From Mesostigma viride (Eukaryota > Streptophyta > Mesostigmatophyceae > Mesostigmatales > Mesostigmataceae): 64,000 bases of DNA. Shown in pieces: positions 9,001 to 60,201 of the stretch. Where the stretch lies: the NCBI GenBank assembly GCA_009746045.1, contig RPFO01000079.1:5676233-5740232 (forward strand). Reading direction: 5' to 3'. Every line of letters begins with the position of its first letter. The stretch's first letter is position 1. A model generated the notes under the pieces. That model saw only the letters and a list, made by a program, of their open reading frames with translations. It ran no database searches and was not told where the DNA came from. Both the position numbers and the translations under genes were made by a program.

Positions 9001-10506
9001 TTGGCAGGCCCTGTGCCACCTGCTTGTCGTGCCTCCTTTGGTGCTTCTTGTGCATGCCCGATTCCTCGTGCTTCTTCAGTCGCTGTAGCTTGCACCCCAG
9101 CAGGAGTGGCTTTTTCTCGAAGTTGGAACAGATCTTGCACTCAATCTTCCATCTGCCACTCCTAGGTGGAAGCTCCAACTTCTTGGCCCAGGAAAACTTG
9201 TCTCCCTCAAACCATTCATCCCTGGGTGGACGCCTTCCATGATACGAGCGTCCCCTCGCGTTCTTCCTCTTCTTCTGCTTCTCCACCTTCCGCTTCTTGG
9301 CTGCTTTCTCCTCCTTGTCTGAGCTGGGCTCGCCAGAAACATGCCCGCTGGAATTTGCAGAAGCTACAGCAGCATCGTCTTTCCCGGAATCCGACTCGTC
9401 CGACGAACTTTGGGTCCCGGACGTCGAGCTTGTGTTTTCATCGGAATCACTGGACTGTGCAGACAATGCTGCCGCCTCTGAGTTACCAGCGGCCCGCCTT
9501 TTCCTCTTGTTGCGCATTTCTAGGTCTTGGACAGCCTGCCTTACATCGACGATATCGGGACTACTTGATGCTGCCCTAGTTTGCCTCTGGAAATACGACG
9601 ATATCGCCACAGACCTAAACTTTTTCAAGAATCCGCCTCCTTGTGACGCCATGCCTTGCTTTGGCGTGCCGAATCCTCGCTGATGATTCGTGAGCCAGGT
9701 TGCAGGAACAAGAAGGCAGTGTAATGCAGAAAAAGCGCAATAATGTTTCCTAGACTTACGGATTATCTGGCTTTTGCCGACGCATTCTATTTCATATCGC
9801 CTGAAGCCCTAAGTGATGTCTAAGCCGATGCAATCCCCCCAATTGCAAGGAAACGCCTCTAAAATAATTCCAAAATATAACCTGCTATTGAAATGCATCC
9901 AACATAAAATTTAGGTAAGCTTGGCTTAGAATGTATCCAGTATCTGCAACGGCCATTGCCACCTCGCGAACTCGGTCAGCTGCTGGCTGCACGAAATAGG
10001 ATGTTTCTCGATGGCAACCAGGCAGACGGGCTGGCAGTTGGCATAATTATGTGTAATCATACTGAATGTTCCAGAGGTTCCACGCCGCCCCACCTTTCAC
10101 CAGTCGGATGTCAGTGTGGGTGGTTCCGCTTACAGTACTGTAGATAGCAGCTGATGCGAACATGCAGTCGGATGTCAGTCAGTCAGGCGGTGCACAAAAT
10201 CTCAAGTACGATGCAGTTAGGTGGGCTTACAGGCCAACTGGGTACGAAAAAGTACTTCAAAAGTTAGGGTGCTGGTCCGGCGCGACGAGTAGAGGTTGAC
10301 GCGGAACCTGTGCCCTATGCACATATTGACGTGTCAGGACTTGGTGCGCGTCAGACGACTGACAGGCACCCTAATTTACGCCTCAGTCGCCTGACGCGCG
10401 GCCTAAATTTCCGCGTCAGACGTCTGACGTGCAGGGTAAAATTACAGACGCGTCAGAGCCTGACGCGTCAGCAGCTGACGCCTGCGTCCCGTTACTAGAC
10501 ACACTG
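6070..10506 (-). mobile_element. hAT DNA transposon, 4.4 kb, ends intact, transposase decayed
   Basis: Both termini read CAGTGTGTCTAGTAA (15 bp perfect, inverted; right copy ends at 10506). The element is flanked by the 8-bp duplication GTAAATCC, which is the hAT-diagnostic length. Subterminal regions at 6105-6175 and 10325-10495 hold clusters of GCGTCAG/CTGACGC motifs in both orientations, as expected of transposase binding sites. The minus-strand transposase remnant occupies 6769-9652. Because the termini and target duplication are exact, the element may still be mobilisable in trans if a matching transposase exists elsewhere. Confidence 0.9.
6769..9652 (-). pseudogene. hAT transposase pseudogene
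   Basis: On the minus strand from the ATG at 9652, an intact N-terminal 250-residue frame has a Ser/Asp-rich segment, a basic KKRKVEKQKKRK stretch and a zinc-finger-like C-x2-C...H-x4-H unit starting CKICSNFEKK. The frame is then lost near 8880. Later fragments in shifting frames show the typical order: AIRVDDSSDLSKKEQE (catalytic-domain start, 8.66 kb), SDGANVMQGADKGAIALC (8.43 kb), a middle region at 7234-8196, and a C-terminal dimerisation region with LSLAVGSVPNER and then IKSKRRTLL, split by one extra T near 7025. I count at least four frame breaks and an in-frame stop near 8203, so it is not functional. The family is that of large hAT proteins with BED-type fingers and DUF4371-like cores. 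Confidence 0.85.
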
Positions 10507-26500: not shown

Positions 26501-29500
26501 AATGTAGCTGGGCAGTTACCAGCTAGAGACGGAAAAAAGGATTAGTTCTGGTGCAGGCCCACATTTTGGGAGGGGCTACAGCAGCACAACACGTCTGCGC
26601 CTGACTATTGCACACAAAATTCCAGCGTTGCTGCAAAGCCTTAATGCTTGTCTAGCAGCCGACAATTGGGACCATTGATCCAGGTGCGCGGCCCAATCCA
26701 GGCCCTCTCATCCCATATAGCCTGTGGTGGCCTGCATCTTTGTTCATGGGCGCAGGCTCCCCTTGGCTGCTATCCAAATTCCAGGGCCACTTTATTTCCC
26801 AGCGCACACTGACGTGTGAAAAGCAAAGAGCACTGACATGTGTGCGCACACTCTGCGGGCTATTTGTGGCCCTTGTGTTGCGTGGATGTGTGCCCTGGCA
26901 TGGCTCTGCATGTGCATGTGTGTGTGCATGTGGTGGCTCCGTGCAGAATGGAGACACCCCATTACAACTTGCGTCGCTCAACGGCCATCTGGAAGTGGCA
27001 AAACAACTTGTCGCTAACGGCGCCGTTGTAAACACCAAGGGCAAGGTCAGTGGGGGTGTTGACCCTGGTGGCCAGAGGGCTCTGGCATGTTCACACGCGT
27101 GACCTGTCACTGGTGATTGGACCCAAGGAGTTTGGTGGGGAGGGGCCTTAGTCCAGGTCTTGCTGCAAACTGGTGCCCTCCCTAGTGGCAATTGGTCGCC
27201 TGCGGTTGGCCTACTAGTGTTTTTGCAGCAGCATTAGGATGCATGCGCAGATTGGTGTTGGCGTGCCTCTTCGTTCGGTTTCTCTCGTGAGGTTGCCATA
27301 CCCACGTGCCACTAGTGTTGCTGAAATTTAAGATTAATCCTGGTATCTAAGCATCGCATGTGGTTTTGTTTGTGGTAACTTGGGTCCTATAAGCACGCAA
27401 TCCGTGCATGCGTGCACGTGAGAGACAGTCGCGGGCACATGCAAAAGCAACCTGTGTGTCGCTGGATCCAAACATGAGTGAGCGTGTCCGTTTCTCCGTC
27501 TCGGGGGATTGATGGAGACTTACCATTTTAGCCGTATAAATGCTTCCCGCTGGCATAGGAGTTCCTGCCACTGTGATGGTGGTGTCCATCGGGCTGTCTC
27601 AGGCCATGTCTCATCCATGCGTTCACTCAGCGTGCATCGCGATAGCGCGAGCTTCTCTCCACGTCAGTAAACCCTCTTCTTGCGTGCCAGGCATGTGCAA
27701 ATGCACACATGTGCCCCGATTCGTGTCGCTACAATCGCAAAGAGTCTGCTCCTTGAGAGCTGCCGTTGTCCGTTGCCCGGATCTTGAAGTTCAATATTGT
27801 CCCGCACACATTCCAGCGTCGCTGCAGGGGCTGTAACAGTCCTTACACAGCCGACCCTGGCAGGCATGGCTTGTGGCAGGCGCCAGGATCAAAAGCTGCT
27901 CGTTCCATGCATAGCCCGGTCCATTGGCCTCATGCCGCCAGTGGCCACGGTCGCGGGCTCCGCCTCCTTTGCTGTGCCTGATGATGTCATGTGCGCGCAC
28001 TCTGCGGTCCATGTGCTTTGGCCCTTGGGTTGCATGGACGTGTGCGCATCCGTGCACGTTCCTGCATGCTTGTGTGCGTGTGCATGTGCATTGCGTGCAG
28101 CATGGGTTGACCCCGCTGCATGCTGCATCACAGAATGGCCACCTGGACGTGGTTAAAGCACTCATTGCCGGCGGTGCCAGTGTGAACGCCAAGGATGATG
28201 TCAGTGGGGGCGCTGGCCCGCGTGGTCCATGCAGTTGGCACCATGGTTTATGGAACAGTTGTACCCACAGAGCTTGTTGGCAGGACCCAAGTCTGGTAGA
28301 TGCCTCATCATTGCTGGTTATCTTGCCTGGTATAGCGCAGTCGCCTGTGGCTGGCCGAACTGTGATGTTGGCTTGCCCCACAGGGTTTGGCTTGTGTTGG
28401 GTGCCATAGCCATGTGGTGACAGAGATAAGCTTACGTGTTATTCTTCGTGCCTAAGCATTGCGTATGTTTTCGCCTGTGGTACCTATGGCATCCTGAAAG
28501 GTGCTCGTGCTGTTATGTGCATGAGAGCCTATTGTTGCATGCAGTGCTAGTCTGTGTCCTACTGGAGCCACATGATTGTGTAAATCTCCTCTGCTGCATG
28601 GTATGCACGGAGACTTCCATTTCAGCGAAAAAGCTGCTTTATCACTGATTAAGGACTGGCTTGCTGCAGGTTATGTCTGTTAGTGCTATCCATCCCTTCA
28701 GCACAACCTCTGCTTTTGACCTCATCTAATTCTCTCTCTGACTGCACGCCTCTGCAAACGCTTGCTCATGCCCCTTTGATACAAAAACAAGCGAAAAAAC
28801 ATCTGCTTCTATCTTCTATCTTCTATCTTCTTCAACAAGCGAGGTTGGTAAAGTCCAATTTTGCGACACATAAATTTGACTGTCGCTGCCAGGGGCTGCA
28901 ATGCTCGGTATGGAGCTAATAATGGTGGCATGGCATGGTCATTATGGCATGGCCGCCAATGTTGAAGGCCCGCTCGACGCATAGCCTGTCCATGACCTAA
29001 ATTCGTGGCCATGGATAGGCGTGGGCTCCTCTTTTGTTGCACCGACCCGGTATGGTTAGGTATCACGCTAATGGTCCACTGAAGTGCCTTCCTACCACGA
29101 AGAGCAACTTCAATACAGAAGGGTGTGCAGGCTTTACTTGCGGTCAGGTCACCGTGACCTGGGCTGCCATTTGGGGGCTGCCAACAAATGTTGCGAAGCT
29201 GAAAAGATAAGCCCCTGTACGGCCATGCACCATACCACTCTTAAGTACATGTGCGCAAGATATCCTACTACACCACGTCATGCTAACATTAATCCATGGG
29301 TTGAGTTTCCTATTGCACCATTTCGGATCTGTACAACATCTGTACAGTGGTGCACACCGTGCAGGGGTATCCCCTTCTTCAGGTCAACATTTTCCATGCC
29401 TGCCACTTTTGTACCTACACCTAAGCCCTCATTCCCGAGCCTAGCCAGTACATCGCACAAGTACATTGTGTCGGTGGCGCATGGTAGAGCTACGCTACCA

Positions 29501-43429: not shown

Positions 43430-43434
43430 TTACA
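43430..43434 (-). terminator. Candidate TGTAA poly(A) signal
   Basis: TGTAA on the minus strand, about 95 bases after the stop of the VHS-CHUP1-type gene. TGTAA is the usual green-algal poly(A) signal; a pentamer can arise by chance. Confidence 0.4.
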
Positions 43435-43527: not shown

Positions 43528-43718
43528 TCAATCATCCTCATCCGCCACCGCCTCGAGCAGTTCGCTCACGCGGTCAAACAGCGCCTCGCTGGCGTGGTCC
43601 AGCCCCCCCGCAAATTGGTGCACCTTGAAGCCAAAGCGCACGGCACCCACCAGCAGCTCCTTGACCTGGCTCTTAGGGGGGGCGTTCTTGGCATTGGTGC
43701 TGGCCGCCGTGTGAAGGC
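43528..43718 (-). CDS. CHUP1-domain exon 17 (last)
   Basis: Acceptor CACGACCAG, stop TGA at 43530-43528. Encodes LLVGAVRFGFKVHQFAGGLD, the most conserved CHUP1 signature (VRFAFRVHQFAGG-type), then an acidic end ADEDD. Confidence 0.9.
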
Positions 43719-46700
43719 CTGGTCGTGGGTTGAGGTAAAAAATGATGCCAGCATGCACAGCCACAAAGGGGCCACGATGCATGAGAAGAAGAGGTGGACA
43801 AAGAGGCACTAAAAGAGGGACCACGGGCGAGCATGACAGCCGCTAGTGCATTCATCAAAACTCTTTTAAGTTTACCATCACCAGGCGGCAATTACCTTTC
43901 ATGCGACCGTGAACGCATGTCCACAATGCACGAAACAGTAACAGCAATCTGAGACTCGAGAAATCTTTGAAAGGACCTGTGAGGAGTGGTGAGGAGCCAA
44001 CTGATCACCCCAGACCTTTCTGGCCTCCCCATCTAGTCTCCTGTCCCCATCCCCTTTCTTCCCCATCCCCTTTCTTCCCTACCACTCCAATCCCTATACC
44101 CCCATTTCTCTCTCCCCCCTTCCGCCCCCTCCATATGAACTGTAACGCCCTACTACCTTTCCTCCTGCCCGTCCCCTCCCAAGCTCCCAACTCACTCTCC
44201 GCATCGGCGATGACGCGCGTCATGTACGCCGACGCCATCTGCGGCGACGCCAGCTGGACCATGCGGCACGCGGCCGCCACGTCCAAGGGAACGTTGTTCT
44301 CCGTGAAGCGGCGCTGGAGCGAGTCCTGGTGAGGGCGAGGGGAGAGGAGTGGTGGAGCGGAAGGGGAGGGGGACAACACAGCCAAGCAGTTGGTTAAGGG
44401 AGCAGGACACCCAAGTAGCCCCCGTAAAAGGAACCCCGCATATCCAGCCATAACGGATAGTGTAGAAAACAATTAGTACAATCGGTAGAGCTGACGACTT
44501 GAAACAGCAAACTGGGACATTTGCCCAAAAGCTCCAATGAGGCTGCCTGCTGGTGATGAGCGGATATGCCCACATGACCCCATTCGATGGGTGACTGGTA
44601 TACTAGCGGCCATGCATGCCCCACCTCTTGCCTCACCCGCTATTGGCCATCGCCCACATTGTCTGCTAGCATCCACCACCCATCTTTTCCACTAGCGGCC
44701 ACCGCCAACCCGTTTTCTTCTACCATCCATCACCCACCGTGTCCCACCCGCTATCATCTGTCACACAACTTGCCCACTAGCATCCAACACCCAGGTGACC
44801 CACTATCTAGCATTTGTCACCTACTTGGCCCGCTAGCCCCCGCCACCCACCTCGCCTACCCGCATTCCTTGTTAATATTTTCTACTGCCACCCCTCATCC
44901 ACTGTGCCCACTAGCATCGGTTGTGTATATCACCGGCTCCTCCACGTCACCCACCTGGCTGCGCTCCAAGGCCTCCACCCGCGCCTTGATGTTGTCAAAC
45001 GAGGTGGTCAGCTTCTTGCACACGTCCCGGCAACTGCTCCCCTTGTCGATCGCTTTCTCCATCGACGACGCCATGTCCATGCTCATGCTGGCCAGCTCAC
45101 GATGAAGACTGGCCGCCTCACGCAGCGCGTCCGCCTGGTGGTGGGCACGTGCATGGACACATGGGTCAAGAGTGGGTCAAAGGGTTGTCAGCAACAATTC
45201 TGGCCGCCTCACGCGCAGCACATCAACGTTGGCTGAACCCACCAAGTGCACAAGTGGTTATTGTAACCACTTGAGAGTAACCAAGAGAGCGTTTAATCGG
45301 GTCAGCGCGCATGGGTGGCACAATCATTCGGCAAGGCTTGGCCAAAAGGTTCGGCAGAAAGCGTGGCACTCTGCGTCCACCTGGGCCGCGCCCCACAGCA
45401 CGCGTTTGTGCGACAAAACGGTTTGCACAAGTACATGAAAACAAGGGGCAAACAATGATGGGCATAAAACTGCTTGACGGTTGATGGGGAAAAAACTGCA
45501 TTTTTAACCTGACGGTAGAAATGCTGTCAAAGCCATGGCTGTGTGCGGGGGAATGAAAGAGCCGAAACGCGGCATGCACCTAAACAAGTAAAGAGGAGCA
45601 GAAGGCCCATTTCACCGGACTAGAAATCACTATGTCACCGTGCAAGCAGCAAGCAGCGACCAGCAAGCAGCTACAGCGCTCCATGTCAACCGCCGCCATG
45701 AGGAGAATGGCTTGTATTTTGGCCAGGCACTCTGGCACCATGGACAGGAGCAAGGAGCGCAAATTCTGCCGAGAGATTTCCATAAGCCATAGCTATATGT
45801 AATGCTATACGTAAAGCTATAGCCAAACGATCGCCTGGCCCATACCAAGCTACACGTACCCTCTCCAGGGCAACGCACTTGGGTGTCTAGGGCGCGCCGC
45901 ACGACACCTAAAAGTGGGGGTAGTCTCCTATCCGCGGGCTCGTGCTTGCGTACGACACCTAAAAGTGGGGGTAGTCTCCTATCCGCGGGCTCGTGCTTGC
46001 GTACGACACCTAAAAGTGGGGGTAGTCTCCCATCCGCGGGCTCGTGCTTGCGTACGACAACTAAAAGTGGGGGTAGTCTCCTATCCGCGGGCTCGTGCTT
46101 GCGTACGACACCTAAAAGTGGGGGTAGTCTCCTATCCGCGGGCTCGTGCTTGCGTACGACAACTAAAAGTGGGGGTAGTCTCCTATCCGCGGGCTCGTGC
46201 TTGCGTACGACACCTAAAAGTGGGGGTAGTCTCCTATCCGCGGGCTCGTGCTTGCGTACGACACCTAAAAGTGGGGGTAGTCTCCCATCCGCGGGCTCGT
46301 GCTTGCGTACGACACCTAAAAGTGGGGGTAGTCTCCTATCCGCGGGCTCGTGCTTGCGTACGACACCTAAAAGTGGGGGTAGTCTCCTATCCGCGGGCTC
46401 GTGCTTGCGTACGACACCTAAAAGTGGGGGTAGTCTCCCATCCGCGGGCTCGTGCTTGCGTACGACACCTAAAAGTGGGGGTAGTCTCCCATCCGCGGGC
46501 TCGTGCTTGCGTACGACACCTAAAAGTGGGGGTAGTCTCCTATCCGCGGGCTCGTGCTTGCGTACGACACCTAAAAGTGGGGGTAGTCTCCTATCCGCGG
46601 GCTCGTGCTTGCGTACGACACCTAAAAGTGGGGGTAGTCTCCTATCCGCAGGCTCATGCTTGCGTACGTGAACAAGCAAGCACGTCCACGATGTGCATCA

Positions 46701-49700
46701 ACAGCACACATACCGGTGCTTGCCGATAGCAGCCATTCCGCTCCAGACCACTCCACACCCGCTGCCATACCCCATACCCCCCTCTCACTCTCCTCCACCA
46801 CCCCTTCCCGCCCCCCCCCCCCCCCTTCCCCTCTCGTCGCTACACGCCATCGGCTCCATTCCCCCGCTGCTCTTCCCCCCCCCCCCTTCCCCTCTTGTCG
46901 CTACACGCCATCGGCTCCATTCCCCCGCTGCTCTTTCCCCCCCCCCCTTCCCCTCTTGTCGCTACACGCCATCGGCTCCATTCCCCCGCTGCTCTTTCCC
47001 CCCCCCCCCCCCCCTCACCTTGGCCTCGGGCCACCCCCCCACGGCCTTGAGCACTGCGCGCTCATCGGTGAGCACTGCCAGCTGGGCGTCCATGTCCTTG
47101 ACGAATGCCAACACCGCATCCATCGACTCGGGCTTGAAGCCGGCGACCATCACGCCCAGCGCCAGCAGCGACTCTCGGTACTTCTCCACGTCCTCCTTGA
47201 CTTGCTGCGGGGACACATCCGGGGGGGGGCATGCGGTCCATGCATGACTTCGTGAGCACGCATGTGCTGGCACGGTGGGTTTTGCGTTGCTAATGTTGGG
47301 TCATGGGAGAGAGGGCGGCGGTATTGTGGCAGCGACTCTTGTAGGGGGAGAGCCAGTGGAAGATAGGGGAGGGTAAGTGGAGGAAAGGACGGCAGTCGGG
47401 AGACTGGAAGGCAAAGAGCAGGCAAGGTGAGATAAATATCCGTAGGGGCGATACGCTACTGTACACAGTGGCAAAAGGTTCAGCATCACCACAGACCCCC
47501 AAATCTCCTCCCCCTTCACCAAGCTCCAAGGGAACAGGTTGACACCATCCCGACGGCAAACACCAAGCCATCAGGCGCACTTGGACGCAGCAGCACTTTG
47601 CAGCATGGCTTGCACAAGTCAGAGTGAGGGGTGCCGGCGACTTGCTATGCTTGCGAGGGACTGGGCAGGGTCATACCACACGCCTAGAACGACCACCTCA
47701 CATCGAATGACGGCAGCAGTCGGGGTCGTAATGGAAGGATGTGAAACAGATGATGGAGTGTGGTACAGATGCCAGTATCCTTACCCTTGTGTACGTTGTG
47801 TTCGTATGCCTGGACTCGTGAACAAAAGTGAGCTTGCCTACAGGGGCGTATCGTTGCCGGTGCGTCTACAGTCATTCACGCATTAAGTTGGGTTGGCTAA
47901 AGTTGGGTTCACGCCTTAAGTTGGGTCGCTTAGGATTTAGGCATACAGTTCAAACTAGTTCAGATTAGTATGTTTTAGTATGTTTAGTTCAAATTAGTGC
48001 AATTTAGCTCAATTACTCACGCCCTAAGTTGGGTTGACCCCGCTTTATCCAGCGAGCACAACTTAAGGCGTGAATGACTGTACCTTGGCGTTCACGATCC
48101 ACTGAACAGCTACAATGTCATGGACTAAACTGACATGATCATGTGCCAAAATGCCACAAGCATGCCTACCTTGATGCGTGCAGATGGTTTAGGGTTTAGG
48201 GTTCAGTGGCGTGTGCCTACCTTTGCGTGCAGATGCCGGCGTGTGCCTACCTTTGCGTGCAGACGCCGGCGTGTGCCTACGTTGATGTGTACAGATGCCG
48301 GCGTGTGCCTACCTTTGCGTACGAGCTGCGCGCCTCCAGCTGTCCGACCATGTCGTCCTTGGACGCCTCACCCTGCGATGCATGTGCCAGCAGATACCGT
48401 GGAAAGTCCACATGTGTCATTGCAAGCAGAAACTTGGGCAGCTCGGCCAAAGATTCCACCACTTCACTCACCAAACAAGTCTTCGGACACAAACATGCAC
48501 ACACAGACAGACTGACAGACTGACAGACAGACAGACACACACACACGCACACACACACACACACATGCAGACAGACACACACGCAGACACAGAGAAATGA
48601 CCAAGTAGCCCAGCTTTGCCTCCGCATGAAATCTACAGCAAGTGCAGGGCCCGTTTCTCATAGCCTACAACCAGGGCAGAGAAGCACATGACCTGGATCA
48701 GCACCAAGCGAATACACAATTTTGGAAAGAGTCAACAACGACGGGAAACCTCTAACGGAGCGGCTACCCCAAATAGTAGATAGCAGCTGCCAAAGCGCCA
48801 GCAGTTCACCAGCAATGCATAGTCCCAGACTGCTCTCCTTCACAGGAACAAGCTCTTCCAACGGCCAGTAAAATTAACCGGCAAAACGCCTCACACCGTA
48901 AACCCGTCAGCTAGTGCCGACTAGGAATGTGAGGGGGCTACGGGGGTGCTTGCTGTGGCACATCATCAAGATAGCTTGCGAGAAGAGAAAGAACAGAGGC
49001 AAGAGACAGCACATATAACGCTTCCCTTCCTGAGGTGGTGTGGGTTAGAATAGAATATAATTAGTATAGAAGCATCCCTCCCTGATGTGGTGTGAATTAG
49101 CCCACCTGTACACACAAAAAAGACCAAAGTCCATGCGGCAGATGTCGCTCGTCACGTAGCCAGCGTGTACAGCACTTGAATGCACATTAGCCAACCCCAG
49201 CAACCCACACCATTATAGTTGTCTCCTTGATAGTTTTGTTGTCGGAGTGTGGCGTGCAAACTTCTGTTACCCACCTATCCATGCCCCTTTTTTTTTGCTC
49301 ATTTGCCAAGAGTCAAGTGTGGCATGTACGCATCGTCCTTCCCCACTGCTTACCTTGCCAGTGGTGGCGTTGGCCATCGCAGCGGCAACGCCGTTCTCCC
49401 CCTTCCCCCCCTTGTAACCCTTGGGTTTGTTGATGGCGCGGTAGAGCTCCAGCACCTGTCGGGGAAGTCGTTCCACACCACATAGAGGGCCATTCAACAC
49501 CGCTTAAGAGGGTCTTTCCACACCACAGAGGGCAATTTTGACACCGTTTAGAGGGCCATTCCACACCAGGTAGAGGGCCATTCCACGCCGTTTAGAGGGT
49601 TCCATTCCACGCCACAAGGCAGGTGGATACTATACATCTATTATAAACATTAGTTGAGCGATGAGCGATGGTGCAGAGACCTGGCAGAGGTACACCACAC

Positions 49701-52700
49701 ACAACTGGTCAGCAACAGAGGACACAAGAGATAGAGAGCATGCAAAGGCAGCACCCATCCTCCCAGTTACAAGCACAAGCCCGCACCTTTTTGGAGCGCT
49801 GGACAGTCTCCTTCTTCTTTTTGCCACCCGCGAGGCCAGGCGGAGGGGGCGGGGGAGGGCCAACCCTCAGCCCCTTCCCAGCCCCCCCTGGAGGTGGTGG
49901 GGGTGGCGGGGGAGGGATCCCCCCTTTCGCAGCCCCTGAAGGTGGCGGTGGAGGGGGTGGCCCTGGCTTAGGCGGCCCACCTGCCTCCGTCGCAGCCACC
50001 CCGGGAGGCTTGGGCGGGGGTGGGGGCGGTGGAGGTGGCTTCTTGACCCCCAGCCCCCCTGCTGTGTAGTGGTCCATAGTATGGTCTGCCGCCGGCACAG
50101 ACATCCGGCTCGTTTTGACATCCGGCGTCGACGGCTCTTTCTTGGACGGTACCTTGTCCAAGTTTGGTGTGGGAGGGATGGACACGGCAGGCTTTGGAGG
50201 CGGTGGAGGTGGTGGGGGCAGAGCAACCGGCGGTGCCACCGGAGGCCCCTCGGATGATGGTGGTGTGGGGCCATGAGCGGGTGTGACCGGTGATTTCTCC
50301 GCGACAGGCGACAGAGAAGGTCGGGCGAGCGCGTCATCTTTTGAGGCAAGCCCACTTGCTGGCGACCCGTTGACTTGGCTACCGAAATTACCACTTGCGC
50401 CTGCAGTGACGCCGGTTGTCGCAGCGGACGCGTTCCAGCCAAACAGCAGGGACCCAGAAGCGCCCCCAAGACCGCTCGCGGGCACACCTGGGCCAGGCCC
50501 AGGCCCTAATCCTGGTCCTAATCCTGGTCCTAATCCCGGCCCTAATCCTGGTCCTAATCCCGGCCCTAATCCCGGCCCTAATCCTGGTCCTAGCCAAGGC
50601 CCCGCCATGCCCTGTCCACCCGCCTGGAATTGGCCAACTGGCGGGACACCTGGCGCGCCCATGCCTCCCCCGGGGGCATCCCCCCGCAAGGCCCCGCTGC
50701 CATAACTGTTCATGGGCACCCACCCCGCCATGGGGCCTGCACCACTGCCTGGCTGCGCCGCGGTCTCAGGCGGGAACAGCTGGCGTGCCGTATCGGGGAC
50801 AAAAGCATGCGACGATGAGGGCGGCGCGGCACCTGCTGCCTCGGTCACCCGGCCGTCCACATTGACACCCTGGAGGGGCATGTTGAGCCCGGACGAGCGG
50901 CCCACGGCCCACCCGGCCCCCTCGGCGGGTGACCCCTTGGCCCCCCCCGCCCCCCCGCTGCCTTGCCTCTTGTCACGCTCCTTGTCGGCGCGGGCGGCCG
51001 CGGCGGCGACACCGGCCGAGTTGAGGAACTTTGCCACTTCAGCCACGTCGAGGACGGGGGTGGTTGTGCGCGACCGCTCGGGGGTGCCAGCTGGCAAGGG
51101 GCACGAGGGGCACGTGAGGGTATTGTCACACACCAAGGGCACGCGAGGCGGTTGTGACACACCAAGGACATTCAATCGGGACAAGAGAGATGTCATATGC
51201 GACAGATAGCATTAGCATTCTCACAGGGAGTGGCAAAAACACACCCACAAATCACGGGAACACGCGGGAAGAGGGGCACGGCAAAGGAAACAGGCAGCCA
51301 TTGCAGACGTCTGGAAAAAGGGAGCGGCAGCCTTGTGCTTCAAGCAGCGGCGTCATGGCAACAGCAGTAGACAGGGTCCATGACCTATGGCTTCGCAGGG
51401 CACCCTCCTAAAGGGTTGCGTTGCGATAGCGTTGTCTCATTCGTGCAGATACAGCGGGCTATATGCTATATAGACGATATGCGGCAAGTTTTATACAACA
51501 GAACGGCTCTATTGTGCCACATGCAGACCTTGCTGTTGCATCCCACCGAATACATACTAGAAACAAACTAAGAGCGCTGCATATATACTAGTATCAATCC
51601 CATGGAAATTAACCAGCGATTTACCAGCACATTGCCTACCAACTCCTGACGATAGCAAGCAAATACCAAGCCGCGTGCCTGTACCCTTATATACAATGGG
51701 CGAGAGCAGTGCCGATCATGATTCCCAGCAAGCAAGCACGGCTGCTTGGTGTTTACGGCAAACTGTCTCAACGTCCATCAAGGTCCAAGTTCAAGTCTAA
51801 AGAATGAACAGGGGAATTCCGCTTCCAACCCAAAGACCCATGTTCTCATGACAGCAACAGGTTCTCTCGGAAGCGGATATGGAAACGAGTGCTGCGGAAA
51901 CGAGTGCTGCCATCCGCACCACAGAGAGAGAGTTAACATACGTAGTTCCATTACTCAAGTTAAAATAGATGCTGCCATCCGCACCACAGAAAGAGTTAAC
52001 ATACGTAGTTCCATTACTCAAATAAAAATAGACGCTGCCATCCGCACCACAGATAACGAAACGTACTTGGGGTTGTACCCTGGCCTGGTGCGGGCAGTGG
52101 TGACCGCAGGAATATGAAGTTGGGTGGTTCGGCTGCGGTGGGTGACTGCATCCCCACCCACCCTGCCATCGCCGGCGGCCGGGCCATGCCAGCGCCGAAC
52201 ATGGCAGGGCCAGGCACAAACCGGCCCAGGGGTGCCGTGGGGGGAACGTTTGCACCCTGTGGCCCTGGTGGGGGCAACGGCACCACCGGAGGGGGTAAGA
52301 TGGGCGTGCTCTTTGGCGGGGGCACCGGTGGTCCTGTAGGCGCGACCACCGGCGGTGCGGCAACAGCGGCGGCTCTGTGATCCACTGCTACAAACGGTGG
52401 CATGTCCCCAAACGGGTCTGGTCCCGCAGCAGGAAAGCTGGCAGCATTGGCTCCATGTGTCGCGAACGTGGCGGCCGAGTTGGCTGAGATATTCGCCCCG
52501 TTTGCCGTCACTGTTGTGGATGTTGCTGTCGCTGTTGTCATCGTGGTGGCGGTGGTGGTGGATGTGGCCTGGCTGTCCTCTGATGACGGCCGCGGCGTGC
52601 TGGCGTCTGTGTCCCACATGTCCATCGACTCCAGCCGCTCGAGGGTGGGGCCTTTGATCACGTGGCGGGCGCTTTGCTGCGCACGCGGGTGCATGTGCAG

Positions 52701-55700
52701 CCAAGCAGGTGGAGCGCGGCAAGGGTGCATTATTATTAGAAGAGGGAGAGGGGTTGGGTGGTGATATAGAGAGCTTCCCTATGGCTGAGCAATTAGAAGA
52801 GGGAGAGGGGTTGGGTGGTGATATAGAGAGCTTCCCTATGGCTGAGCATGTAGGGCAGCGTATAGCAAGGGGGGGTGTCGTATTTGATGGTTGCGTAAGA
52901 AATGCAGCTCCATAAATTTTATATTCGACTCAGTTTTGGAGCGAAACCAGCCCTCATGCCACATTTTCCATAACCAACATGGTCTTGTCAAGGCACTCCT
53001 ACTTCAGACACAAAATGCCACCCAACCCATCCTGCCCCTCGCGCCAGTGCCTCCACATGCCCAGCCCCCCACATGTAGGTCACCCACACGTATTGTCTGG
53101 CCTACCCATGGCAGCTAGTTCTTACCTGGTGAGAGAGCCCTGAGACTAATCATCAATAAAACTGATCACGGGGACTTGCACTCTTGCCCACAAAAGAACA
53201 GAGAAAGGCGCCAGGGACAGAGCACTGAGAAACCCTTCATGCAGGCGGCTCGCGACCTTGTAGTGATCATGTTCATTACTTGCGATCCCACGCCCATCCT
53301 CTCCGCCTCACACACGGCCCGGGGGGGAGCGCCCCGCCTTGACCCTACTTTTCCAGCGACATGTCAAGGCGGTGACATCTCAAGCAAGGACGCCCAAGAA
53401 AAAAAACACTCCCACCGTGACCTCTTCAGGCAGTAACACCTCAAGCAAGGATCCTTCAAGCAGCACATTACTGCTGGCGGTGGTCACTCCAATGCTCATC
53501 CCCCACCAGTGCTCCCTACGCCGTTCAATCGCAGCCGTGTTCCCCTGCCCATCGCCACGTCAGAGCCCCCAAACCTCCAGGCGCGGCCTCTCCAGCGGAA
53601 CATCTCCAGCAGCTCTCCCTCAAACACTCAACCTCATGCAGCAGTATCTAAGCTGACCACCTCCAACCTGCCAGCAACAAACCCCAGCAAAGACACCCCG
53701 CCCCGGGCAGCACATCGCCCGCAACGCGCCCACACATGCCCTCCTCAACCTTGGAACCACGAAAGCTCCAGGGACCGTCCCTATCGCGGCACGCCCCCAG
53801 CCATGCCCCTTCCATGCCCACCTCAAACTCCGAGGGCCACGCGCCGGATACGCTGGAAGAGCGCGAAGACGGTGGCTCAGGGCTGTTGGTGCGGGTGCTG
53901 TACGCGCTGGTATTCGTGCGGGGGCTGCCCCCACATATGCTCTGGGGACGGGGGGCCTCGGACCTCCCACGTCCATGGGGCGGGGGCCACGGCTTCTCAA
54001 AGTCTGGCGTGGACTGGCTGCGTGGCATGCTGCCGCCGCCATCACCGCCCACCACCATCGAGCGCGAAAGTGCCAGGGCGAGCTGAGGGGATGCGGACGG
54101 GGGAGGTGACGAAGGCCGGCATGAAAGACAAGGAGGGGTCAGTGCGGGTGACAACAGAGCCCAACTGAAGTGCACGTCGAAGTGCCAAAAAAAATTGGGG
54201 GCGCACATGCACAGTGCGGAGAACTTAATCCTGGTATGAGAGCAGCATGACAAGAGGATGGCACATAGGCTCAATTCCATGCCAACACATCATGCCTGAC
54301 ATTAGGCATACAATGGGTATGCTATCAATGATCTGCGCCACACTTTCTGCTGTCATCCGCACAGGGCATGATATAAATAGAAAAGGAATTTCCATGGCCA
54401 TGCGATACCAGCCCCCCTCAAGCAGCCAGTATAGCACGCCCATTTGCTACAACAAGCACTCGCTTTAAGCAGCCTCCGCAACACAACCATTCGCTACCCA
54501 AACCCTAACATGAAGCGCTTCCTGCTCCTGTCACACAAGCACTCACATCCAGCTCTTCCTGCTCCTCTCGGGTAAGGCTGCCCGTCGCAGGCGCCTGAGT
54601 GGACAACACTGCGCCGTCCAGCAGCGAGCCTGCAGGGTGGCACCCAGGTGCCGCCGGTAGGAGAGGCAGAGACAAAGCAGCGATCAGAAGAACAAACACG
54701 GCAGGCAGGTGGGGAACCTGCACGCAGAAAACGATCACTGAAACGGGCACAAAGCTGGTGAATTGATGGCAGGGCAGCACATTGTCGGCGAGAAGAAGGA
54801 AAATGCATGCAGCCCACGACGGAAGCACGCGCCACACTAACTAGCCATAACACTACCTGCTCACACGCAAGGGGGGATGTCCACACACCTTGCCTCCTCT
54901 TGGCTTCCATCGCAGCCAGGTACTGGGGTTGCGAGCTCTGCACGCAGGGGAGCAGAGTGAGTGCGACCAAAGGCAGACGGCAAAAGAAGCGATCACAAAA
55001 AATCAACATCAAACATGAGTGGCGGATGAGTGATCAAAGCTAGTGGCATGGTAAGCCACACAAGATGATCTCACAATGCACATGCCCATGGAGCTACAGG
55101 GCATGCCATGCGCATATCAACTTGCTGCCTCTTGCTCTACACAACACACATGAAGGACCACCGCGGTGGTGCGCGCTGGTCGAGCGATGGGTGCTAACGA
55201 CAGACCGCCAGACGGAAGGCATACCAAGGCAACAGCAACGAGCTTTCGCATCAATGCAGGATGAGACAGCCCCTCGCAGGGGGGGGGGGGGGGGGGGGGG
55301 GGGGGAAGCAAGCACACCATGGAATGCTCTGACCCTGCGAGTTCTCAACTGGCGATACACAGGGGAGGAAAACCCAGAGATGGGCATCCCCAAATCAGGC
55401 ACCATGCGCTGCTCCATGCTGGAACATGCCCCCCCCCCTTCCCTTTCTTCCCTAAAACGCCTCCAGGTGTCATAACCACCCGGCCATTCCCTGCCACCAC
55501 ATGCACCCACCATAAACACATATGTGCTTCCACACCCCTTTCCCCTGCCTTTTCATCCCACACGCATCCACCACGATGCCACGTGATTCTTGCTCCAGGT
55601 AGGTTCTGCCACACACAACCACCACCAGCAACACATGCAGTTCTCCCCCCCTCCCGACCCCCAACATGCCTTCTTGTCCCCGTTCGCCACCGGGTGCTGC

Positions 55701-58700
55701 ATCTTGCCCGTGTGTGAGGCTGCACGCGGCGGCGCCATGCCTGTGTGTGTATACGCGTTCGACAGCAGACCCGCGCGAGAGGAGAAGCTGGCGCTGCGCT
55801 GCCGGCTGAGAACCGCATGGTCCAGCGGCCGGAAACCTGGGGGGGGGGGGGAACGGGGGGGGGGGGGGGGAGAGAAGGGGGTGAGAGGGGGTGACAGGGG
55901 GGGTCAAAGGGGGGGCAAGGGGGGGGCCAAGAGGCGGAGGGGGGAAAGGAGCGGAAGGTTGGGCAAGCGTTGCAGCAGAAGTGCCAATAAGAATCAAGTC
56001 AGGATGATTTGCAAATTGGAGTCAGGACGGTTTGCGTGTGGGGCAGCTCCGTGACCGGTGGCTTTGAAAGGGTACTAGAGGACCATCACCGGTGCCAGTG
56101 GGAGGCAAGTCGTCCATCCACAATGTGCTTGCCCGGGGCTGGCATGGTAACTACACCTTAACGAGGTTGCGTTACTGTCCTTGAGGTTGCAGCGCACATA
56201 AAGTGGCAGGGCATGCCACTAAAGACCCACAGACCTATAAGGCATGCCACCAAAGACCCATAGACCTACCGTCGGGGTTACACCACCACAGTTGGGGCTC
56301 AAGATGTATTGCAACCTACATATAGCGTAATATACGTTCCCACAGTACAGCCCCTCCGAATACGTGCCAACATCAATAAACCTACAGCCTCGCTATGTAT
56401 ATCCTCCCACCTATGTTATATATACCCCCCACAATAGCCCCTCCGTATACGTGCCAACATCAATAAACATCGTTATCGCTGCTCCCCTTCGTGGCATACC
56501 TGGGCTTGCTGCCAGCTTCTCGTGCATAGCAAGATTTTGCCTACCCCTCGTTGCCCGCCGATGAAAAGAACAAACCAAGGATGACCCCACAACCTTGCTA
56601 TCCTCTGATCAACCCCGCATGTGCACCCAGGGAGGCATTGAGGTACGCTACTAAGTCTGTAGTAGTGTACCATCCCCTCCACTCGCCACTTCCCCGCTTT
56701 GCGCAGGCTGGTGAGCATGTCCATGAATACTGCGGTAAATCTACATAGTGGCATGAGCATATAGGTGTGATTTACTATGACGGCGGCAGTTAGTATTGCC
56801 CCTGCCCTGCCCCTGCCCCCGCCACCCACCTGCTTTGCGCAGGCTGGTGAAGGTGTCCACAAATGCGCGCGCGAGCGACGTGCGCGTCTCGGTGGTCAGC
56901 GCCGCCCAGTCCATCAACGCCATCATCACGCTCTGTGCCAGCTTGGGCTCCTGGCACGAGGGTTGGGTTGGGTTGGGTTGGGTTGGGTTGGGTTGGGTTG
57001 GGTTGGGTTGGGTTGGGTTGGGTTGGGTTGGGTTGGGTTGGGTTGGGTTGGGTTGCGTTGGGTTGGGTTGGGTTGGGTTGGGTTGGGTTGGGTTGGGTTG
57101 GGTTGGGTTGGGTCGGGTCGGGTCGGGTTTGTGTTGTGTTGTGTTGTGTTGTGTTGTGTTGTGTTGTGTTGTGTTGTGTTGTGTTGTGTTGTGTTGTGTT
57201 GTGTTGTGTTGTGTTGTGTTGTGTTGTGTTGTGTTGTGTTGTGTTGTGTTGTGTTGTGTGTTGTGTTGCGTTGCGTTGCGTTGCGTTGAGTTGTGTTGTG
57301 CGGTGTTGTGTTGTGTTGTGTTGTGTTGTGTTGTGTTGTGTTGTGTTGTGTTGTGTTGTGTTGTGTTGTGTTGTGTTGTGTTGTGTTGTGTTGTGTTGTG
57401 TTGTGTTGTGTTGTGTTGTGTTGTGTTGTGTTGCGTTGCGTTGCGTTGCGTTGCGTTGTGTCGTGTTGCACTGCGTCGCATCGGGTTGGGTTGTGTACGA
57501 TTGGGGGTCGAGGGCACGCGTGGATTCCCCCCGTGCACCTCTTTGTATACAGGGGGCATGCATGGACAGAGCACGGGGGAGGTGGGTGGGGAAGGTCAGG
57601 GGGGGTGGGGGAGGGCAAGGGTTTCCTGGAAGTAGCCCATGAGGTGATGGAATACCCATTTGTGTGAAACACAAAATAGGTCTTGCAACCTTGATTCCAC
57701 ATGCTACTACACGGACCTATGAGCATGACATGCATCCTACCTAGAAATCAATCCTACCAGATATCTCCACTGCACGTGCATCCAACCAAACAAATGGCTG
57801 GCTGCTCTAGATCTGTAGATTTACACGTCTGTTGCAACGTACCTTCTTGCCCCATGCCTTCACCGCACGGCTAAGGCGCTGTTGCCACTTGGGGGCGGCC
57901 ACCAGCTCCCAGAACGATGCGTCGCAGACTTGCATGCACTGATCCAAGATCTGGGACCGCAAAGGCGAGCCCCAAGCAAACACCAAAGGACATGCAGGCA
58001 TGTAATCGTCTCCTTCACATCAGGAGGTATGTGGCGGCTAGGATGCTGGCATCGGCCACTTCAACTGGGTGCACCCCTGAGATCTGCCACGCCACCACTT
58101 ACCACACCCCCCTTTCTCTGGAACTCAGTATTTTTGGAAGAAACAAGGATTCTTTCTGTAAGGTTTTTTGGTAAGGGCTTGCAAGCCGAGGCGACGTGCC
58201 AGCACGTCAATTTCTGACTTGCGCCGCCCGAATCTCCGCGTGGATGCGCAACTACAGAGTCTGTTGGAAGGTGAGGCACTTTTGGGGACAGGACGCACGA
58301 CCCACCCTGGAAACCACCATGACATTGACAGAGCGGTGCCCTCACTTCTCAAGGAGACAACCAGCGCAGGCCCTCACTTATGTCCAAGGCATCCACCAAG
58401 AGAGCAGAGCCAAGAAAAAGGGGCATACCTTGACGGCCACAAAGCAGTTTCCCAACGAGCTACCCAGGATGGGGTGCTTGAGCGCTTTGAGTGCGTACCG
58501 CCCGGTGCTGAGGTTGTAGGGGCATCCCCACCATTCATCCCGCCAACCACCACCACCGCCATCACCATGCACATGCACCGAGTGCAGCAGGCAAAGAAGA
58601 CATGTTAACTCGAAAGCCTTTGAGCATACACATCAACATGGAAGCGTGCACAAGCCGGTGGCCAAGTTCATGGCACGCTAGTTGGCACATCTGGAGTCGA

Positions 58701-60201
58701 GACAAAGGTTCCAGAGAACCATGCCATAGGACATGGGCTAAGGCCCAAGGATGGGTTGAGGCCAAGGGCATGTTGAGGCCAAAAGTGTGTTGAGTAAAAG
58801 GGTGTGTTGAGGACAAGTCCCCACGATTCCACGTCCACGCCAACAAGTACTAAGGCCGCCATATGTGGGCACAGCCCAGCTCGAAATTTGGAAGCCAATT
58901 AGGGGTTGCTGTGCAAAGCAGTAGAGCTGACTGAATGGGTAGCCACTATCTTGGGATGCTGCAAAAATGGCAGCTACGGCACAGCCTGCTCATTAGAGCC
59001 CACCGCTTTGGGGGGTCTCCCTATGGCATCCCTGTTCTCATGGGCAGTCTTTGTTTGCTGACAACGGAAGGCATGCAAACCCCGCTGCAAGTTGGCAGCT
59101 ACACGTGCCACACTAGAGACGATGCGCCTGCTAAGACAAGTTCGCAGTCACGTGCTTTGCATACTTGGTCATGGATTACTTTGCCATGAAAACGTATAAA
59201 GTTCGATAAAGTGTTAAGCGGTTAAATACTTGGTCGTGGCCTTATCAAATAAGGCCGTCTACCCGCAAAGCATGTAGGCTCCAATTCATGTCCTAATGTC
59301 CACAATCACTTAATAAAGAGCAATGCTTGACGGTGGGTGAATGAGGGGCGGCAACCAACATCGGTGCAGGGATATATCCACTGGGCACAATGGGTGGGAC
59401 GGTGACGGCACAGGCATAAAGACCAGTGGTACCTTGCGTCACCATCTTTGACCCGTTGGACAAACTCTTGGATCCTGTCCGAGTCCTCGCCCTGCAAGCA
59501 GGCGCACCGGTCGTGGGCCACGAACCAGCAGAGAAAGGGGTAAGCCTTGTCAGACAGCGTTGTGCTGGTGCCCCTGTGTGGCTGAGGATGAAGCTGCCCC
59601 TGTGTGGAACTAGATCCCTGGGCGGCAGGTCAGGTAACCACAGGAAAACAGAATTCGATGGGAAACAAAATATGGTTTCGTGCTGAGCTGTGCATTAGGT
59701 ACATGTCCCAAGCTTCTCGTTCTTATTTCGACTTCCGGCCTAGGAAAACATAATACACGAGGACCAAAGTAGAATCACCCACAAAAACTGGCGAACAGCA
59801 TTGGCGATAGAAAATTGGAACAACTCCAATTATTCTGCGACGACCTCACTCGCAGCGCCTGCCGCCCCCGGCAATTTCTGGCATTTGCGCATCCCTAACA
59901 CGACGGTGTACAAATCACGTCCATTGGTCGCGGTCGACACATTTACATTTCAATTATTTGCATGGCACGGAATGCTGCGAGCTGTGGATTGCGTTACGAA
60001 CATCAACAGTAACTAAGAAACTGTAATATATAGCAGTTTATGCTGCGATTCCTCAATCCCAGTCCAGCCAACGGCCCCCCGGCCCCAGCGTACCTGCAAG
60101 TGGACATCGGCATATAAAATGCGATCCAGCAACGCCTTGAATTCCCTCTTGTCGGCAGCGGCCTCAATAAGACGTTTTCTTTCCAGTAGTGTTGGGGCCA
60201 T
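43528..60201 (-). CDS. VHS-UIM-proline-rich-CHUP1-domain fusion protein
   Basis: Seventeen exons, high to low coordinate: 60201-60094, 59491-59433, 58507-58429, 57950-57843, 56950-56830, 55836-about 55691, 54937-54889, 54629-54547, 54082-53822, 52676-52079, 51090-49787, 49455-49354, 48372-48313, 47204-47019, 45134-44955, 44325-44196, 43718-43528. Reading phase closes at every junction without a stop; only the donor of exon 6 is uncertain. The product is about 1,254 residues: VHS-like helical domain (1-165), UIM (about 247-262), a low-complexity Pro/Gly/Ala/Thr linker with poly-Pro tracts (to about 970), then the complete CHUP1 C-terminal domain (about 970-1254). In plants CHUP1 polymerises actin on the chloroplast envelope; VHS and UIM modules sort ubiquitinated cargo on endosomes. 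The plant CHUP1 N-terminal membrane anchor and coiled coil are absent. I infer an actin-assembly factor recruited through ubiquitin or endomembranes. It could still be two genes if a promoter hides in the linker introns. Confidence 0.8.
44196..44325 (-). CDS. CHUP1-domain exon 16
   Basis: Acceptor CCTCACCAG, donor GAGA|GTGAGT. 43 residues: DSLQRRFTENNVPLDVAAAC, then VQLASPQMASAYMTRV, matching the CHUP1 segment with (I/V)P(V/L)D and LAxxYM. Confidence 0.9.
44955..45134 (-). CDS. CHUP1-domain exon 15
   Basis: Acceptor CACCACCAG, donor CAG|GTGGGT. 60 residues starting ADALREAASLHRELASM. The ADALREAA motif directly after WPEAK is diagnostic for the CHUP1 domain. Confidence 0.92.
45895..46665 (+). 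repeat. 51-bp minisatellite, 15 copies, in an intron
   Basis: Unit GTACGACACC...CTCGTGCTTGC, 51 bp, about 15 copies with only two recurrent variants (CTCC[T/C]ATCC and GACA[C/A]C). The 17-codon period keeps frames open on both strands (up to 349 codons), but splice-site logic puts the array in the intron between exons 14 and 15. Confidence 0.95.
46793..47015 (+). repeat. Three-copy 60-bp repeat with poly-C runs
   Basis: TTCCCCTCTTGTCGCTACACGCCATCGGCTCC...GCTGCTCTT repeated three times, separated by runs of 9-16 C. It abuts the donor of exon 14. Confidence 0.9.
47019..47204 (-). CDS. CHUP1-domain exon 14
   Basis: Acceptor CCCGCAG, donor AAG|GTGAGG. 62 residues: VKEDVEKYRESLLALGVMVA, MDAVLAFVKDMDAQLAVLTD, ERAVLKAVGGWPEAK. 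The LxxFVxxLDxxLxxLxDERAVLKxFxWPE signature of plant CHUP1 is plain. Confidence 0.95.
48206..48312 (-). repeat. Tandem copies of a splice donor
   Basis: On the gene strand, the real donor GCAAAG|GTAGGCAC of exon 13 is followed by copies of GTAGGCACACGCCGGCxTCTG at +32, +62 and +92; the last two restore CACGCAAAG|GTAGGC exactly. Confidence 0.85.
48313..48372 (-). CDS. CHUP1-domain exon 13
   Basis: Acceptor GCATCGCAG, donor AAG|GTAGGC. 20 residues GEASKDDMVGQLEARSSYAK, matching the CHUP1 MIGEIExRS segment. Confidence 0.88.
48500..48600 (+). repeat. (CAGA)n/(CA)n microsatellite
   Basis: Mixed GACAGACAGACA and CACACACA runs in the intron between exons 12 and 13. Confidence 0.93.
49354..49455 (-). 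CDS. CHUP1-domain exon 12 (domain start)
   Basis: Acceptor CCCGACAG, donor AAG|GTAAGC. 34 residues starting VLELYRAINKPKGYKGG, equivalent to the CHUP1 ELVEFYQSL helix that follows the proline-rich region. Confidence 0.88.
49787..51090 (-). CDS. Linker exon 11 with poly-proline tracts
   Basis: 1,304 bp. Begins GTPERSRTTTPVLDVAEVAK, has nine tandem LGPG tetrapeptides (about 50515-50600) and five poly-Pro runs near the end (PPPPPPPPKPAVSIPP; PPPPPPPPPKPPG; GPPPPPPPSG and others), then GGKKKKETVQRSKK|GTGCGG. Poly-Pro next to the C-terminal domain is the expected place for profilin-actin delivery in CHUP1 and formins. Confidence 0.85.
51890..52060 (+). repeat. 64-bp tandem repeat, 2.5 copies, in an intron
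   Basis: Unit GCTGCCATCCGCACCACAGA...GTTAACATACGTAGTTCCATTACTCAA, in the intron between exons 10 and 11 and reaching its donor. Confidence 0.85.
52079..52676 (-). CDS. Linker exon 10
   Basis: Acceptor GTGCGCAG, donor CAGG|GTACAA (phase 1, closing with CT of exon 11). 199 residues: QSARHVIKGPTLERLESMDM, a Thr/Ala-rich stretch, DPFGDMPPF (a DPF endocytic-adaptor-like motif), then Pro-rich to the end. Confidence 0.75.
52738..52852 (+). repeat. Two-copy 57-bp tandem repeat
   Basis: GAAGAGGGAGAGGGGTTGGG...CCTATGGCTGAGCA occurs twice in direct order, in the intron before exon 10. Confidence 0.9.
53822..54082 (-). CDS. UIM second half and linker exon 9
   Basis: Acceptor CCCCTCAG, donor GAG|GTGGGC. 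Starts LALALSRSM, completing the UIM begun in exon 8. Then Ser/Pro/Arg-rich with SRSMVVGGDGGGSMPRSQST and many SP/TP sites. Confidence 0.85.
54547..54629 (-). CDS. UIM first half, exon 8
   Basis: Acceptor CCTGCAG, donor GAT|GTGAGT. 27 complete residues ending LTREEQEELD; joined to exon 9 this gives REEQEELDLALALSRSM, matching the UIM pattern (acidic patch, L, invariant Ala, then Ser). Confidence 0.88.
54889..54937 (-). CDS. Exon 7
   Basis: Acceptor GCGTGCAG, donor CAAG|GTGTGT. SSQPQYLAAMEAKRRQ, joining in phase to GSLLDGAVL of exon 8. Confidence 0.72.
55279..55306 (+). repeat. Poly-G run (27 G) in an intron
   Basis: Uninterrupted G run between exons 6 and 7; assembly length should not be trusted. 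Confidence 0.9.
55691..55836 (-). CDS. VHS end, exon 6 (3' border uncertain)
   Basis: Acceptor poly-C-CAG|GTTTCC completes the codon left by exon 5, giving SLRKAGFRP, the usual LRxxGxxFP end of VHS domains. The donor is unsure: CCG|GTGGCG (used here) or a GC-type AAG|GCATGT slightly further on both keep phase. Confidence 0.6.
56694..56735 (-). pseudogene. Partial duplicate of exon 5 end
   Basis: Encodes MDMLTSLRKA against VDTFTSLRKA of exon 5 (56831-56867), but its donor is lost (GCGGGGAAGTGG instead of GCAG|GTGGGTGG). Confidence 0.6.
56830..56950 (-). CDS. VHS exon 5
   Basis: Acceptor CGTGCCAG, donor GCAG|GTGGGT. 40 residues: EPKLAQSVMMALMDWAALTT then TRTSLARAFVDTFTSLRKA. The WA and LRKAG positions match helices 6-8 of VHS domains. 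Confidence 0.9.
56961..57490 (+). repeat. Pentanucleotide satellite (TTGGG)n-(TTGTG)n-(TTGCG)n
   Basis: About 30 TTGGG units (56961-57108, one TTGCG variant), three TCGGG, then TTGTG units interrupted by TTGCG blocks near 57270 and 57432. It lies entirely in the intron between VHS exons 4 and 5. The gene-strand RNA is C/A-rich; the plus strand carries about 30 regularly spaced GGG runs. Confidence 0.97.
57843..57950 (-). CDS. VHS exon 4
   Basis: Acceptor GGTCCCAG, donor AAG|GTACGT. 36 residues starting ILDQCMQVCDASFWELVAAP; corresponds to the TLLExCVKNCGxxFHxxV helix of VHS domains. Confidence 0.9.
58429..58507 (-). CDS. VHS exon 3
   Basis: Acceptor CAACCTCAG, donor AAG|GTATGC. Residues TGRYALKALKHPILGSSLGN then CFVAVK; matches the AVKALRKRL helix region. 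Confidence 0.85.
59433..59491 (-). CDS. VHS exon 2
   Basis: Acceptor CTTGCAG, donor GCAAG|GTACCA. GEDSDRIQEFVQRVKDGDA plus a split Ser codon. Confidence 0.8.
60094..60201 (-). CDS. Exon 1 with start codon
   Basis: ATG at 60201-60199, donor CAG|GTACGC. 36 residues MAPTLLERKRLIEAAADKRE... No signal peptide or membrane segment, so the product should be cytosolic. First in-frame ATG after an upstream in-frame stop region. Confidence 0.75.

Follow-up and report, generated by a model that had tools for sequence, protein, structure and literature searches.

A predicted gene of Mesostigma viride with a VHS-like domain, a UIM-like motif and a CHUP1 actin domain, and a paralogue with the same arrangement

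The window analysed here is a stretch of 64,000 nucleotides of the Mesostigma viride genome (contig RPFO01000079.1, positions 5,676,233 to 5,740,232). Its minus strand contains, at 60201..43528, a gene whose predicted product carries, from the N- to the C-terminus, a VHS domain, a UIM-like motif, poly-Pro runs and a CHUP1 actin domain. Another gene with this arrangement, encoding the protein P0001, is found in the same genome, and the CHUP1 domains of both are split from canonical CHUP1. The common layout and the common introns are the main evidence that the two descend from one ancestral VHS-UIM-CHUP1 gene, and they strongly support the view that VHS, UIM-like motif and CHUP1 are joined in one protein. 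It is probable that the exons at 60201..43528 make up a single Mesostigma gene, that it belongs to a second CHUP1 subfamily and that its product acts in a general sense as an adaptor for actin assembly, the three being taken together.

Exon structure and the second gene

The 17 exons are joined in one open frame without a stop. The predicted product has 1265 amino acids (aa) with a short exon 13 and 1301 aa with a longer one; the early searches, and residue numbers such as 984-1301, refer to the 1301-aa form. The 16 introns are 259-1884 bp long, and 15 of them have GT-AG ends while the one after exon 6 is GC-AG. The GC content is 66% in the exons and 54% in the introns of the gene. The published genome of M. 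viride NIES-296 is given (PMC6947507) as 441.8 Mb in 2363 scaffolds with a mean intron of 1142 bp. Two acceptors, 48372 and 48480, are both in phase for exon 13, and the form starting at 48372 omits 36 residues. The start at 48372 is the more likely, because the 48480 form inserts residues that are absent from P0001 and mostly gapped in the alignment. With this start corrected, the exon chain and the outer coordinates of the preliminary description hold, the frame being continuous and linked in phase at the junctions. The poly-Pro linker (exon 11) followed by a CHUP1 C-terminal domain over six exons (12-17) was likewise found as described; the domain is present over its length and matches the CHUP1 crystal structures 8wag (E 7.7e-33) and 8waf (E 2.3e-30).

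By codon usage the exon chain is better than chance. The codon table was derived from L001, a single-exon gene of the Mesostigma genome, and stretches of the window gene's introns, at the lengths of the shorter exons, served as controls. With stops neutral, the phase-linked frame scores best in 16 of the 17 exons, as against 920 of 3000 open intron stretches. Counting the stops gives 17 of 17, and the stops-neutral version is the one relied on.

P0001 is a protein of 1107 aa from Mesostigma viride Mesvir1/6614 (EukProt) with VHS, UIM, poly-Pro and CHUP1 in this order. It was the best of 335 matches to the CHUP1 part of the window protein, above the other 119 listed, and the two proteins are 33-37% identical. 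P0001 maps to contig C1552 over 28 kb in 17 main matches, 13 at 94-100% and four at 71-88%; the four weaker ones run past exon ends or through low-complexity stretches, and the CHUP1 part is covered by six matches at 86-100%. The chlorophyte origin presumed in the preliminary description is not borne out, since M. viride is a streptophyte and 13 of the 17 matches place the Mesvir1 protein in this same genome. P0001 differs from the window protein in that its model shows a longer stretch of helix following the UIM; split matches indicate that its CHUP1 domain probably has one additional intron or more. The annotated N-terminus of P0001 is doubtful, since at the 5' end (L015; C1552, ~44600-44653) the gene model may run past an acceptor immediately ahead of VEDTEAM.

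Eleven of the 16 window introns, named here by the exons on either side, can be compared with the P0001 gene (2/3, 3/4, 4/5, 5/6, 8/9, 11/12, 12/13, 13/14, 14/15, 15/16 and 16/17). The phase agrees at all 11. At nine of them the aligned positions are identical as well, and one of these nine lies within the UIM; 4/5 is offset by one codon and 12/13 falls in an unalignable stretch. The window splice sites were fixed before the comparison with P0001; the short form of exon 13 is the exception and was chosen in the light of it.

The exon chain could in principle be made up of two adjacent genes on the same strand, one encoding VHS-UIM and the other poly-Pro-CHUP1, that are in frame by chance. A chance junction retains phase about one time in three, and introns 9/10 and 10/11, where the genes would be separated, have no homology anchor. 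The paralogous gene on C1552, however, has the same order, the same strand and the same 11 intron phases over its 28 kb despite deep divergence, and the P0001 gene model runs through the whole layout. A TGTAA signal lies at 43434, 3' of the stop, and neither intron 9 nor intron 10 has one, which is a weak argument since intron 11 does. Because P0001 has the same layout and intron phases at 33-37% identity, two adjacent genes are very improbable, and the proposal that VHS, UIM-like motif and CHUP1 are parts of one protein stands. Three points count against this single-gene reading: the structure of the window gene was read from genomic DNA alone, its introns 1/2, 6/7, 7/8, 9/10 and 10/11, at the 5' end or in linkers, are without homology anchor, and P0001, too, comes from a gene model whose support is uncertain.

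Table 1. Exons of the VHS-UIM-CHUP1 gene in the window
Exon	Position	Strand	Encoded part and remarks
1	60094..60201	-	start codon at 60201; N-terminal VHS part; no clear C1552 counterpart found
2	59433..59491	-	VHS
3	58429..58507	-	VHS; intron 2/3 phase 2, common to P0001 gene
4	57843..57950	-	VHS; intron 3/4 phase 0, common to P0001 gene
5	56830..56950	-	VHS end; introns 4/5 phase 0 (one codon off) and 5/6 phase 1, both common to P0001 gene
6	55670..55836	-	linker; GC donor after exon
7	54889..54937	-	linker
8	54547..54629	-	UIM-like motif, first half EEQEELD; position and phase of intron 8/9 match P0001 UIM (by eye)
9	53822..54082	-	UIM-like motif, second half LALALSRSM; linker
10	52067..52676	-	Pro/Thr/Ala-rich linker
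11	49787..51090	-	linker containing five runs of 7-9 Pro; end KETVQRSKK
12	49354..49455	-	CHUP1 domain start VLELYRAINKPKG; intron 11/12 common to P0001 gene
13	48313..48372	-	CHUP1, short form; alternative acceptor 48480
14	47019..47204	-	CHUP1; TDERAVLK
15	44955..45134	-	CHUP1; ADALREAA
16	44196..44325	-	CHUP1
17	43528..43718	-	CHUP1 end VRFGFKVHQFAGG and stop

Two introns of the gene contain repeats that were recognised by eye. Intron 14 has a minisatellite of ~51-bp units at ~45900-46700, the frame of which reads as a repeated 17-residue peptide, and intron 4 has long ACAAC- and AACCC-type pentamer runs at ~56960-57500.

The VHS-like domain and the UIM-like motif

The VHS region corresponds to exons 1-5. 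Pfam VHS (PF00790) matches residues 1-345 of the window protein with E 1.1e-5 (25.7 bits) and residues 1-160 with E 1.9e-6 (28.2 bits). A profile built from two sequences, the N-termini of the window protein and of P0001, picks out the VHS domain of TOM1 (1elk) among solved chains at E 5.1e-6. Of the 10 chains in the list, which extends to E 10, seven belong to VHS proteins, the other six of these having E 0.083-0.92. The window sequence alone reaches 1elk at E 0.075 only. The VHS parts of P0001 and the window protein are 33% identical (pairwise E 1e-18). The VHS domain that the preliminary description had placed over five to six exons thus agrees with the profile match and its span, but in the HMM check it stays below the Pfam gathering cut-off of 29.8 bits, which P0001 also misses.

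A protein search with window residues 1-290, to E 10, gave no match, P0001 being missed as well; this N-terminus, used alone as a query, is therefore blind. When the genome (439,911,974 bp in 2243 contigs) was searched exon by exon with Pfam VHS, the sole match was L001 and the window's own VHS exons were missed; with the P0001 VHS as query, C1552 was the only match. L001 is a separate VHS gene elsewhere in the Mesostigma genome, a 495-aa open frame at 1441-2928 that is above the Pfam VHS cut-off (E 1.2e-28) and TOL-like by eye.

The UIM-like peptide EEQEELD/LALALSRSM is split across exons 8 and 9. The UIM core L..A...S stands in an acidic context in both proteins (EELDLALALS in the window protein, AELQWALEAS in P0001), and a phase-0 intron cuts both motifs at one place, ELD/LALALS and ELQ/WALEAS. 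Pfam UIM (PF02809) accepts a 51-residue piece of P0001 at E 1.7e-4, with 21.6 bits against a cut-off of 21, the whole protein scoring 16.6 bits; it finds no UIM in the window protein. The window motif is supported because the homologous P0001 peptide is a Pfam UIM and because the common intron lies inside the motif. What had been called a textbook UIM is therefore better described as a UIM-like peptide: its split over exons 8 and 9 is as claimed and the intron is common to P0001, but Pfam UIM is silent on the window protein.

The ubiquitin site of VHS domains uses a Trp, as in STAM and TOM1. At the position of this Trp the alignment has Ser in the window protein, Thr in P0001 and Trp in L001. 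Ubiquitin binding, if any, would therefore rest on the UIM.

The replaced Trp in the two genes and its retention in L001, the VHS scores under the Pfam cut-off and the window UIM that Pfam does not recognise all fit an alternative in which the N-terminus is a divergent alpha-helical scaffold and the protein a CHUP1 paralogue that does the usual actin work at chloroplasts or in the cytosol, unconnected with ubiquitin. This explanation is rather unlikely, as the UIM core is kept in both genes with a common intron inside it and the P0001 peptide is accepted by Pfam UIM, although narrowly and as a short piece. Further results lower the weight of a VHS-UIM reading: the UIM-like pattern also arises in 128 of 1000 shuffles of the window protein (160 of 1000 for P0001), the AlphaFold model of P0001 has low confidence at the N-terminus, and Foldseek with this model gave no VHS among the best 50 of 424 rows, a result of little weight given that low confidence.

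CHUP1 loci, phylogeny and a haptophyte relative

CHUP1 is known as an actin factor that is specific to plants and attached to the envelope of the chloroplast. The Mesostigma genome yielded four loci with a CHUP1 domain, one in the window and the others on contigs C1552, C1402 and C2133. The C1402 gene carries the RFTELEEVVYLRWVNACLRYECRN block (YLRWVNACL), which matches the Arabidopsis lyrata CHUP1 cluster at 53% over 77 aa (E 7e-21) and Marchantia at 61% over 67 aa. The C2133 locus (L022, 5700700-5706300) is a divergent P0001-like copy, in which the DERAVLK motif is changed to DQRATLK, and may be decaying. No VHS was found by profile at E <4 in the ~20 kb upstream of either the C1402 or the C2133 locus; the same profile picks up exons of both VHS genes with E values no worse than 1.3e-5.

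The joined profile, used as a search query, placed a protein of the haptophyte Pavlova (Diacronema) lutheri, P0121 (898 aa), first among 26 matches (E 2.7e-44). In a tree of 24 CHUP1 domains, C1402 groups with 20 land-plant-type sequences (support 100/99). The window gene, P0001 and Pavlova form another clade (100/99), with 94/85 for the window gene and P0001 alone and with long branches. A grouping of the three Mesostigma genes is disfavoured by the approximately unbiased (AU) test (p 0.0119), the group having been named after the tree was seen. Because the plant-type C1402 groups with land plants and the window gene, P0001 and Pavlova stand apart, the latter type is, on these groupings, a second CHUP1 subfamily distinct from canonical CHUP1, and both coexist in Mesostigma. 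To regard the window gene as a possible ancestral form, as had been suggested, is accordingly too simple, since the same genome has a CHUP1 of the land-plant group.

P0121 resembles the window protein in its CHUP1 domain (37% identity, same clade), its poly-Pro and a UIM-like peptide, and differs in an N-terminus that is not recognisable as VHS. The UIM of P0121 is convincing by eye and reaches E 1.1 only with Pfam UIM_2. Its N-terminus is helical in the model, mostly at low confidence, and the structure search with this model gave no VHS among the best 50 of 320 rows, again with a low-confidence N-terminus. The top match of the structure searches with both the P0001 and the Pavlova model was Arabidopsis CHUP1. 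A VHS domain in P0121, first read by eye, was rejected: hhalign gave a Prob of 0.1 on a scale to 100 and Pfam none, pairwise shuffles gave z 0.43 and -0.31, with 153 and 292 of 500 reaching or exceeding the real score, and in a profile test 1064 of the 1851 shuffles scored, out of 2000 made, did so too. Pattern searches for CHUP1 in viral and GTDB contigs gave 36 and 89 matches, none of which was confirmed.

The fusion may have been confined to the Mesostigma lineage, where a copy of a VHS gene joined a copy of CHUP1 without wider meaning. Only two VHS-UIM-CHUP1 genes were found, both in Mesostigma, in an analysis that covered four retrieved proteins in full, and P0121 is not detectably VHS at its N-terminus; the precomputed Pfam column lists PF26700 only, even for P0001, which leaves room for VHS domains in other CHUP1 matches. 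Opposed to this is the grouping of both CHUP1 domains with Pavlova and not with the plant-type CHUP1 of Mesostigma, at the support and with the post hoc grouping given above. The CHUP1 type would therefore predate the Mesostigma lineage, unless Pavlova acquired it later or is contaminated. A purely local fusion is a possibility, though one that we think more probably wrong than right. The lineage-specific fusion of the preliminary description is hence at odds with the clade that the CHUP1 part shares with a haptophyte, and in keeping with a haptophyte N-terminus that is not recognisably VHS.

Elsewhere in the window, two single ankyrin-repeat exons lie on the plus strand at 20779-21261 and 27915-28406 (Pfam Ank E 2.6e-8 and 9.4e-11). 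They probably belong to a single ankyrin gene or to several, and similar frames were seen by eye at 23238-23720 and 26656-27099. On the minus strand, three long frames at 7237-9808 are hAT-like transposase by eye, Pfam giving nothing convincing (CAP_N E 0.0055), and a 792-aa open frame at 2-2377 reaches the window edge and has no Pfam match at E 0.01.

Proposed role and comparison with known systems

The window protein can be pictured as an adaptor of ~1265 aa that would work without the canonical N-terminal anchor. The VHS domain would dock on a membrane or a sorting complex, the UIM would favour ubiquitinated partners, the poly-Pro runs would deliver profilin-actin, and the CHUP1 domain would dimerise and build actin filaments at the docking site. 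VHS and ubiquitin, and not an envelope anchor, would in this way select the surface for CHUP1-type actin assembly. The individual binding steps, the location and the cargo of the protein are all putative. Control by ubiquitin, taken alone, is a tentative proposal, with the balance slightly against it.

Such a subfamily, existing side by side with canonical CHUP1 and bearing an N-terminus of the trafficking type, would show that the actin module exceeds the system of chloroplast movement in age and portability. If the proposal is true, ubiquitin recognition and actin assembly would also be coupled within one protein of the plant lineage. The setting, a basal streptophyte alga whose CHUP1 type also occurs in a haptophyte protein, would make it possible to test how the anchored form arose. 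A still wider proposal, that two forms of CHUP1 existed before land plants, one anchored in the envelope and one steered by VHS-UIM to ubiquitin-marked membranes, the latter shared with haptophytes and lost toward land plants, is speculative and on the whole unlikely.

The ESCRT-0 (endosomal sorting complex required for transport 0) subunits Hrs and STAM carry UIMs, and they have, like TOM1/TOL proteins, an N-terminal VHS domain. The likeness to ESCRT-0 pointed out in the preliminary description is limited to this domain order. No GAT, FYVE or SH3 was found by Pfam in window residues 1-345, the VHS Trp is replaced, the UIM is unrecognised by Pfam, and an actin domain is present instead. Nor were the ESCRT-0 features FYVE, SH3 and core coiled coil found by Pfam in residues 1-345, in residues 984-1301 or in the linker 347-601, residues ~602-983 being outside the scan. 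Membership of the window protein in ESCRT-0 is not supported. A limited literature search found no pairing of CHUP1 with a VHS domain, which does not establish novelty in print, and no mention of CHUP1, ESCRT or VHS was found in the available part of the Mesostigma genome paper (PMC6947507).

The window protein lacks the hydrophobic N-terminal anchor of canonical CHUP1. Averaged over 19 residues, hydropathy within the first 60 residues peaks at 0.46 in the window protein; the peak is 1.2 for P0001 and 1.33 for Pavlova, as against 1.81 for the A. lyrata cluster and 1.77 for Marchantia. The YLRWVNACL block has no match, by blastp to E 0.01, in the window protein, P0001 or the Pavlova protein. 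Canonical land-plant CHUP1 and IPGA1-like proteins (PF26700) share with the window protein a C-terminal CHUP1 domain preceded by poly-Pro runs, with 32-37% identity to its CHUP1 part over the 119 matches listed after P0001. Whereas canonical CHUP1 has a hydrophobic N-terminal stretch and the YLRWVNACL block, the window protein has a VHS and a UIM-like motif in their place and belongs to a separate clade.

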